Below, piece by piece: positions 40,682-41,863 of a stretch of 64,000 nucleotides of DNA. The position numbers and the translations under genes are program-made. Positions within the stretch are counted from its first letter, which is position 1; the number at the start of each line of letters is the position of its first letter. The notes beneath the pieces were generated by a model, which saw only the letters and a program-made list of their open reading frames with translations, searched no databases and was not told the origin of the DNA. Origin of the DNA: Planctomycetota bacterium (GTDB taxonomy: Bacteria > Planctomycetota > Phycisphaerae > Phycisphaerales > Phycisphaeraceae); contig CP066225.1 of NCBI GenBank assembly GCA_016350165.1, positions 4,650,001-4,714,000 of the forward strand, given 5' to 3'.

Positions 40682-40714
40682 ATAAAAAACAACCTCGCGC
40701 GGGGCGAGGTTGTT
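40682..40714 (-). terminator. Terminator of the TPR/alpha-CTD gene
   Basis: AACAACCTCGC (40688-40698) pairs perfectly with GCGAGGTTGTT (40704-40714). The T run is on the minus strand (A's at 40683-40689), so it serves the gene ending at 40759; it may also slow the + strand transcript ending at 40664. Confidence 0.8.
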
Positions 40715-40758: not shown

Positions 40759-41688
40759 TTAGCCTTCGAGGGTGCGGAGGCCCATGCCCATTTCGGCGAG
40801 CTTCTCTTTGATTTCGAGAAGGGAAGTCATGCCGAAGTTTTTGACGCCCATGAGTTCAGCTTCTGTCTTGAGGACGATGTCGCCGATGCATGAGACGTTA
40901 AGAAGAGCGAGAGCTTTGCGAGCACGTACTGAGAGGTTGAGGTCAGCGATTGGGCGGCCGAGCATCTCGTTGTCGCCGTGGGAGCCTGCGAGCTGTTCGT
41001 AAACTTGCTCTTTGACTGCCTGCTGATGCTGCTCAACTGATTGGCCAAGACGAAGGCCCTTCTGTGCGAGCATAGCTTTGATTTCTTCGAGAGATGCGTC
41101 GCCGAAGTTCTTGAAGGAACGTAGTTCGGCTTCGGTGACTTTGAGAAGGTCGCCGAGGGTACGGATGTTCATCTTGCGAAGTGCGTTACGTGTACGAACT
41201 GAGAGTTCGAAGTCGGTAACAGGTGTGTCGAGAAGCACCATGTGCTTTTCGTTACGCTTTTCGGCTTCGTCATCAATGACCATTGCTTTGGAAGCGATGA
41301 TGTCTTTGATGTATAGCGAAGCGCGTGGGTGTGTTGGATTGGTTGCGAGTACTTGACGGATGCAACGTTCGGCTTTTGAAAGCTCGTTGCGGTCTTCGTA
41401 CATGATCGCGAGGTTGATGAGTGCATTGAGATGAGGCTTGTCGGCCTTGATGCATTCTTCGTAGAGGTGAAGTGCTTCATCTTCTTCACCTACTACGTCG
41501 AGAGCGTATGCGAGGCGGAAGCAGATTTCGGCATCATCAGGGTTTGCGGTGTATGCTGCCTGGTAAGCTTTGACAGCAGCAGGTCGGTCGCAAGCCTGTT
41601 CGGCAGCGAGACCTTGTTCGTAGTATTTTTGGGCGGTTGCGGAATCGACTGCCTGTACGGCACCGAATGTTGCATCAGCATCTGTCAT
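40759..41688 (-). CDS. TPR protein with two RNA polymerase alpha C-terminal-like domains
   Basis: 309 residues. TPR-like helices at about 17-130 (AAVKAYQAAYTANPDDAEIC; EALHLYEECIKADKPHLNAL). Two tandem alpha-CTD domains follow: about 155-215 (VTDFELSVRTRNALRKMN) and about 246-307 (IADLNLSVRARKALALLN). In the first, Arg165 and Asn168 align with E. coli Arg265 and Asn268, and Gly196/Ser199 with Gly296/Ser299, the minor-groove DNA contacts. The second keeps Arg255, Gly286 and Ser289 but has Lys258 for Asn. Lys298 is not conserved in either. There is no polymerase-assembly N-terminal domain, so it is not rpoA. It could recruit polymerase or bind A-tract DNA; that is inference. AGGGG lies 9 nt before the start. 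Confidence 0.88.
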   Translation of the reverse strand: MTDADATFGAVQAVDSATAQKYYEQGLAAEQACDRPAAVKAYQAAYTANPDDAEICFRLAYALDVVGEEDEALHLYEECIKADKPHLNALINLAIMYEDRNELSKAERCIRQVLATNPTHPRASLYIKDIIASKAMVIDDEAEKRNEKHMVLLDTPVTDFELSVRTRNALRKMNIRTLGDLLKVTEAELRSFKNFGDASLEEIKAMLAQKGLRLGQSVEQHQQAVKEQVYEQLAGSHGDNEMLGRPIADLNLSVRARKALALLNVSCIGDIVLKTEAELMGVKNFGMTSLLEIKEKLAEMGMGLRTLEG

Positions 41689-41863
41689 AGTGATTTAACC
41701 CCTGAGGTTAAAAAATGGTCAAGTTCAGTATTCGTAAGACTATAAATAATAATCATGTGGGGATTGGGGGGCAAATATAAGTCGGGTAAGGGTGTTGAAC
41801 GGGGAGTGATTGTGGCTGGATGTGTATATCGGTTTTGGGGGGTAAATGGGGCCAAAGTGTGGG

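Follow-up and report, generated by a model that had tools for sequence, protein, structure and literature searches.

What would two copies of the RNA polymerase alpha C-terminal domain (alpha-CTD) do in a protein that carries TPR repeats and lacks the alpha N-terminal domain? The question is raised by a gene in a stretch of 64,000 nucleotides from a member of the Phycisphaeraceae (Planctomycetota; GenBank assembly GCA_016350165.1, contig CP066225.1, positions 4,650,001 to 4,714,000), which is termed the window below. The best explanation of its product, the TPR-(alpha-CTD)2 protein, would be a phylum-core adaptor that tethers a partner to DNA, most likely at promoters beside RNA polymerase; this composite reading is tentative, at a little under an even chance.

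Domain architecture

In Pfam searches, the window protein matches RNA_pol_A_CTD over two stretches (E 1.2e-38) and TPR_2 over three (E 3.1e-12; Table 1). Both CTDs score above the PF03118 cut-off of 23.8 bits (73.5 and 65.5 bits), and the three TPR_2 stretches, together with three helix pairs in the structure model, give at least the three repeats by which a TPR protein is recognized. A model of the alpha N-terminal domain is absent among the 25 Pfam hits of the protein at E up to 1, and its scores against the NCBIfam RpoA equivalogs lie below the cut-offs (NF003513, 131.6 bits versus 302; TIGR02027, 123.6 versus 227.8). The protein is not an RNA polymerase alpha subunit: residues 16-120 are TPRs and the alpha N-terminal domain is missing. 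The third alpha-CTD match of the window genome belongs to a 356-aa frame, presumed to be rpoA, located about 83 kb away at 4,607,794. The original prediction of a TPR protein with two alpha-CTDs and no alpha N-terminal domain is confirmed by the ORF, Pfam and the model, and a chance architecture is excluded because it is conserved over a phylum (see below).

The AlphaFold2 model (mean pLDDT 90.4, pTM 0.56) consists of three TPR helix pairs (residues 16-116), a long helix (121-153), CTD1 (about 155-215), a further helix (216-236) and CTD2 (about 240-306); confidence is high within each domain, but this pTM leaves their relative arrangement undefined. When the model is used in Foldseek, hits 1-29 are TPR proteins, and rank 44 is the alpha-CTD of a CAP-DNA complex (3n4m_B; TM 0.83 by target length, 43% identity).

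The window gene stands alone: the same-strand ORF before it ends 175 bases upstream, and the downstream neighbor is convergent. The flanking terminator-like hairpin is only suggestive, with three such sites in the region versus 1.5 (sd 1.2) in shuffled sequences, and the promoter-like site is a candidate at most, with one such site versus 0.8 (sd 0.9). No conserved motif was seen by eye in 20 upstream stretches (the window and 19 relatives).

Table 1. Features of the TPR-(alpha-CTD)2 gene and its flanks (window positions; residues of the window protein).
Feature	Position	Strand	Basis
TPR-(alpha-CTD)2 protein, 309 aa	40759..41688	-	ORF with ATG start; Pfam; orthologues across the phylum
Three TPR repeats, residues 16-120	41329..41643	-	Pfam and AlphaFold2 model
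Long helix 3' of the TPRs, residues 121-153	41230..41328	-	AlphaFold2 model
alpha-CTD 1 (CTD1), residues 155-215	41044..41226	-	Pfam, alignment to E. coli alpha
Inter-CTD helix, residues 216-236, mostly poorly conserved	40981..41043	-	Model and alignment
alpha-CTD 2 (CTD2), residues 240-306, Lys at 268	40771..40971	-	Pfam, alignment
Terminator-like hairpin, 11 pairs and T tail, 3' of the gene	40688..40714	-	Only suggestive
Candidate promoter-like site TTGCCC-17-TATTAT, 5' of the gene	41746..41774	-	Candidate at most

Distribution in Planctomycetota and beyond

A strong match (1e-30) to the window protein is present in 276/294 sampled Planctomycetota genomes, and in 153 of the 155 good genomes with one match each. 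The 18 genomes without a strong match are mostly incomplete, two of them being at least 90% complete (G031 and G143). At the looser threshold of E 0.001 all 294 genomes match, a level that similarity to TPRs or rpoA could reach by itself. The phylogenetic distribution, which the original prediction named as a check, is near-universal in the phylum. The number of alpha-CTD matches in the 148 genomes with a completeness of 90% or more is exactly three in 125, above three in 17 and below three in six, three of these six belonging to a single genus, g92. Three per genome is the pattern expected of rpoA plus a TPR-(alpha-CTD)2 gene, an assignment confirmed place by place in part of the 125 genomes. 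Where examined, the additional alpha-CTDs of genomes with more than three sit in other frames.

A peptide scan of the window protein against 84,980 species, which detects close relatives only and covers the distribution beyond the phylum poorly, gave 30 loci, of which 29 are titled as Planctomycetota lineages. In the 30th (L063), the match is confined to TPR residues, and six genomes of the phylum of L063 have one alpha-CTD (five genomes) or none (one genome). A mobile origin was rejected, as 80% query coverage is reached in 0/41 matching plasmid records and 0/6 phage records. The matches listed, which include 15 of the 41 plasmid records, all lie on the CTD half with 37-45% identity, and the named ones among them are RNA polymerase alpha. 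Likewise, seven loci on viral contigs each match the CTD half only.

The domains themselves are already known, and no earlier paper on the arrangement of TPRs with tandem alpha-CTDs was found in the literature searched. Automatic annotation names for the protein may exist. The titles listed, with subscription papers mostly outside the coverage, include no study of a TPR-(alpha-CTD)2 protein, and the main text of a Planctopirus TraDIS paper contains 0 occurrences of 'TPR', 'rpoA' or 'alpha subunit' (PMC10632474).

Conservation of the CTDs and the TPR arm

Conservation was assessed in 100 orthologues, comprising 81 (from 99 matching frames after removal of copies) and a further 19; 41 are from or near the order of the window and 59 are outside it. 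L148, whose stretch gave a weak match only (score 79), was left out. Counts for CTD2 are over 98 rows, the RpoA-CTD comparison includes 21 sequences from the phylum, and residues in the CTDs are numbered as in E. coli alpha. The contact positions other than R265 and N294 among the six considered next are presumed, in part following the original prediction.

In the window protein, alignment with E. coli alpha places R165, N168, G196 and S199 of CTD1 at R265, N268, G296 and S299, and R255, K258, G286 and S289 of CTD2 at R265, position 268, G296 and S299, just as originally described: the four residues are kept in CTD1, and CTD2 has Lys at 268. CTD1 of the window protein also has N294, E302 and acids at 259/261, and it lacks K291 and K298. 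Across the orthologues, CTD1 retains R265 in 99, N268 in 94, N294 in 99, G296 in 100, S299 in 96 and E302 in 100 of 100 sequences, and all six are invariant in the 59/59 orthologues outside the window's order. CTD2 retains R265 (97/98), N294 (93), G296 (95), S299 (92) and E302 (98); at its position 268, a basic residue is the rule (86/98; Lys 59, Arg 27), with Asn in six. The loss of contact residues in orthologues, which would have spoken against the original prediction, is not seen: R265 persists in 99/100 CTD1 and 97/98 CTD2. Among mostly polar columns, variability is lower in the seven contact columns than in the remaining 31-32, both in CTD1 (p=0.0023) and CTD2 (p=5.8e-5) and in RpoA-CTD (p=0.0005), p-values that ignore relatedness and include positions some of which may be structural. 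Conservation alone is not proof of DNA contact, because G296, S299 and E302 may serve the helix-hairpin-helix fold and RpoA is equally constrained.

Several positions set the CTDs apart from the RpoA-CTD of the phylum. N294, which in E. coli alpha is described as entering the minor groove together with R265 (PMC7822876), is kept in 99/100 CTD1 versus 14/21 RpoA, and Arg is present at 267 in 97/100 CTD1 and 89/98 CTD2 versus 4/21 RpoA. At position 273, Met predominates in CTD1 (98/100) and Leu in CTD2 (91/98), versus Glu or Ala in 15/21 RpoA; position 271, acidic in 21/21 RpoA, is mostly non-acidic in CTD1 and CTD2, and position 306 is hydrophobic in CTD1. K291 and K298, described as phosphate contacts of E. 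coli alpha (PMC7822876), are conserved in neither CTD1 nor CTD2 across the orthologues. At position 291, Ser or Ala prevails in CTD1 and Gly or Ala in CTD2, K291 being present in 12/21 RpoA of the phylum, and position 298 is mostly Thr/Ala/Ser in the CTDs and Thr in 20/21 RpoA.

In E. coli, alpha D259/E261 contact sigma70 R603 (PMC5511352). An acid is present at 259 in 100/100 CTD1 and at 261 in 99/100, versus 15/21 RpoA at each, and the best sigma match of 10/10 genomes, including that of the window, has Arg at an R603-like motif. The R603-like position is a presumed one, placed by motif relative to E. coli sigma. Over equal columns (254-315), the mean charge is +1.5 for CTD1, +1.4 for CTD2 and 0.0 for RpoA-CTD (n=21). 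A shift of about four charges (RpoA -1.9, CTD1 +2.0, CTD2 -0.7) was dropped, as it was due in large part to unequal flanks; equal columns give a modest shift.

In the TPR arm, N92 (99/100), E98 (97/100) and D99 (97/100) are near-invariant and may face the TPR groove. Most orthologues outside the window's order have about 140 extra N-terminal residues, with TPRs in the four scanned; those without the extension include L080, L098 and L103, partly due to start codon choice.

Origin and loss of CTD2

A tree was constructed by a quick method from 72 CTDs (22 RpoA including that of E. coli, 26 CTD1 and 24 CTD2) over 73 columns. RpoA-CTD, CTD1 and CTD2 are each separated from the rest by one branch (SH-aLRT 88, 96 and 93), with many forks open, which suggests that the CTD duplication predates the radiation of the phylum. 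In genus g92, both orthologues that were read (L146 and L147) end after CTD1, and ruvA is located 239-248 nt downstream. In family f15 (L136 and L138), most contact residues of CTD2 are lost and CTD1 is intact. The simplest reading would be a single duplication before the radiation, followed by loss of CTD2 in g92 and its degeneration in f15. The natural single-CTD variant of g92 demonstrates that loss of CTD2 is possible.

Gene neighbors

Neighbors were surveyed with models of six neighbor genes in 61 stretches from 36 families, 60 of which have an orthologue, over the interval from -450 to 800 nt from the end of the gene on the same strand. ruvA is present in this interval in 26/60 stretches (19/36 families). 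Where ruvA is absent, spoIID is present in 11 stretches (7 families), or else tgt in two (2 families), and 21 stretches have none of the three; taken by family, ruvA, spoIID or tgt is near the gene in 28/36. The ruvA start is 9-324 nt downstream in 24 of the 26 stretches (17 families), and at most 35 nt downstream in 13 (9 families). In L086 ruvA is at 597 nt, with ruvC between it and the gene, and in L091 its distance is -412, where a stop inside the match of that genome indicates a doubtful frame rather than plain adjacency. In families f24 and f62, ruvA is farther away or on the opposite strand.

In several stretches the genes are arranged in the row TPR-CTD, ruvA, ruvB, spoIID, tgt, yajC, secD, and Pfam confirmed all six neighbor genes in one instance apiece, including RuvA and RuvB of L084. 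The family of the window and eight others include stretches with none of ruvA, spoIID and tgt, and the family of the window is not among the 17 with ruvA closely downstream; in the window genome, the TPR-(alpha-CTD)2 gene (4.69 Mb) is distant from both ruvA (1.85 Mb) and ruvC (1.94 Mb). In many other bacteria, the YebC gene precedes ruvC. Replacement of YebC by the TPR-(alpha-CTD)2 protein was rejected, as YebC (PF01709) is present in 57/59 sampled genomes, including that of the window. Homology to RuvA, RuvB or RuvC is absent in the window protein (Pfam, E up to 1), with only a weak HHH_5 hit (E 0.15).

Other proteins with alpha-CTDs

The alpha-CTD of RNA polymerase (PF03118) shares its fold and most of its DNA-contact residues with CTD1 and CTD2. 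The TPR-(alpha-CTD)2 protein differs from RNA polymerase alpha in the missing alpha N-terminal domain, the tandem CTDs behind TPRs, Arg267, the hydrophobic residue at 273 and the lack of K291 and K298. PglW of type-2 BREX likewise has an alpha-CTD-like domain outside RNA polymerase, which is described in its nucleic-acid-binding part (PMC12839542), but PglW is a kinase of 1400-1600 aa in a defense system, whereas the TPR-(alpha-CTD)2 protein is a small TPR protein. The window protein scores 33.7 bits against the NCBIfam PglW model (cut-off, 990) and has no kinase hit in Pfam. In Francisella, alpha1 and alpha2 are a second source of alpha-CTDs in one cell (PMC3294249), but these are RNA polymerase alpha subunits from two rpoA genes.

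Phage-type stand-alone proteins share with the TPR-(alpha-CTD)2 protein an alpha-CTD without the alpha N-terminal domain, and uncultured Caudovirales entries bear the name 'RNA polymerase, alpha subunit, C-terminal'. Unlike the window protein, three such short ORFs on viral contigs (IMG/VR; L126:2968-3303, L129:2791-3222 and L131:2857-3255) encode 111-143 aa with a single CTD, leaving no room for a TPR array. The ORF in L131 is followed by one that, by eye, resembles thymidylate synthase.

Another alpha-CTD architecture of the phylum is joined to a sigma-like domain. An 803-aa frame (L184:2093-4501; G019) has three alpha-CTDs and a 701-aa frame (L187:1538-3640; G058) has two; in both frames a Sigma70 region 4-like domain follows, together with a HARE-HTH-like match. 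Genome G058 also has a 338-aa frame with an RpoA-like C-terminal alpha-CTD (L192:354-1367), possibly a second rpoA or contamination, and an alpha-CTD match in a 437-aa frame. In G121, a 1423-aa frame (L186:2485-6753) contains NERD, protein kinase and alpha-CTD domains and is PglW/BREX-like, and a 137-aa frame (L185:547-957) has a single well-conserved alpha-CTD beyond the usual three of that genome. In a 966-aa frame (L188:1038-3935; G063), an alpha-CTD lies between PurS-like and FGAM-synthase linker/AIRS domains, and the long frames in L189, L190 and L193 (1503, 1472 and 1091 aa) have one alpha-CTD each.

Possible functions

For a DNA-tethering adaptor, CTD1 and usually also CTD2 would grip the minor groove through the face used by polymerase alpha, that is, R265, N294, N268 or Lys/Arg, and the G296-S299 hairpin, with CTD2 as a second grip beside CTD1. 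The TPRs would dock one conserved protein partner, which would thereby be held on DNA, and the setting would be promoters, adjoining RNA polymerase. The tether anatomy is suggested by where the constraint is strictest, structural TPR positions aside: the DNA face of CTD1 and a small number of TPR residues. DNA binding by the CTDs is predicted with considerable confidence, and a conserved TPR partner is likely. This conservation agrees with the idea in the original prediction of CTDs on DNA and a partner tethered by the TPRs, DNA binding and the partner both being predictions; the interpretation given there is thereby supported in part.

The promoter setting is possible rather than probable. 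It is favored because CTD1 keeps the sigma-contact acids 259/261 more strictly than the phylum's own alpha and because the primary sigma has arginine at the motif matching sigma70 R603; however, the acidic pair may be structural, and the genes commonly found nearby belong to ruv, spoIID, tgt and sec rather than to transcription. The absence of K291 and K298, the modest charge shift, and the absence of CTD2 in g92 or its degeneration in f15 argue against the adaptor reading as a whole. The weaker charge argument is roughly offset by the invariance outside the window's order, and the assessment is therefore left unchanged. A more specific version is rather unlikely: the protein would provide RNA polymerase in trans with two further alpha-CTDs carried by a TPR arm, as a phylum-wide core transcription factor binding UP-like DNA and sigma region 4 beside polymerase, with CTD1 under stricter constraint at N294 and 259/261 than the alpha of the phylum itself.

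The frequent proximity of ruvA on the same strand (19/36 families, the start being 9-324 nt downstream in 17) and the ruvC gene located between the two in L086 raise the alternative of a role in DNA recombination or repair. The protein would then bind DNA as a partner of RuvABC, which acts on Holliday junctions; its CTDs would grip DNA as helix-hairpin-helix domains of a general kind, and its TPRs would dock one of the Ruv proteins. This is unlikely, as spoIID, tgt, yajC and secD are in the same cluster, which looks like an old housekeeping cluster; moreover, another gene of the cluster is downstream instead in nine families (spoIID in 7, tgt in 2), none of the three is near in 21 stretches, and ruvA and ruvC of the window genome are far from the gene. 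Two likely DNA grips per chain would also suit a nucleoid-associated protein whose CTDs occupy many A-tract sites and whose TPRs link molecules or other proteins, thereby compacting the chromosome, and the protein is near-universal in a phylum where Gemmata is described as having a highly condensed nucleoid (PMC3440768). Yet the charge of the CTDs is shifted only modestly from that of RpoA-CTD, and a single CTD suffices in genus g92, leaving such a role distinctly improbable.

Loss of DNA binding, with the fold kept in CTDs that have become protein-binding modules, would be in keeping with the hydrophobic residue at 273 in both CTDs and the missing K291 and K298, but R265 (99/100 and 97/98), N294 (99/100 and 93/98) and the new Arg267 are hard to explain without nucleic acid, and there is little chance that this reading is correct. 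Least probable of all would be a decoy or competitor that removes UP-element DNA or alpha-binding partners from polymerase alpha, a reading that was one part of the original prediction: the DNA face of alpha and its sigma-contact acids are retained in CTD1, but other surface positions (273, 271 and 306) depart from RpoA, and near-universal presence would be less expected of an inhibitor than of a constitutive factor.

Biological significance

The TPR-(alpha-CTD)2 protein is a near-universal, one-copy protein of a phylum, with deep constraint on a surface that is likely to grip DNA. A location at promoters would make it a general transcription factor of the Planctomycetota, and action alongside RuvABC or within the nucleoid would have implications for chromosome handling in these bacteria.
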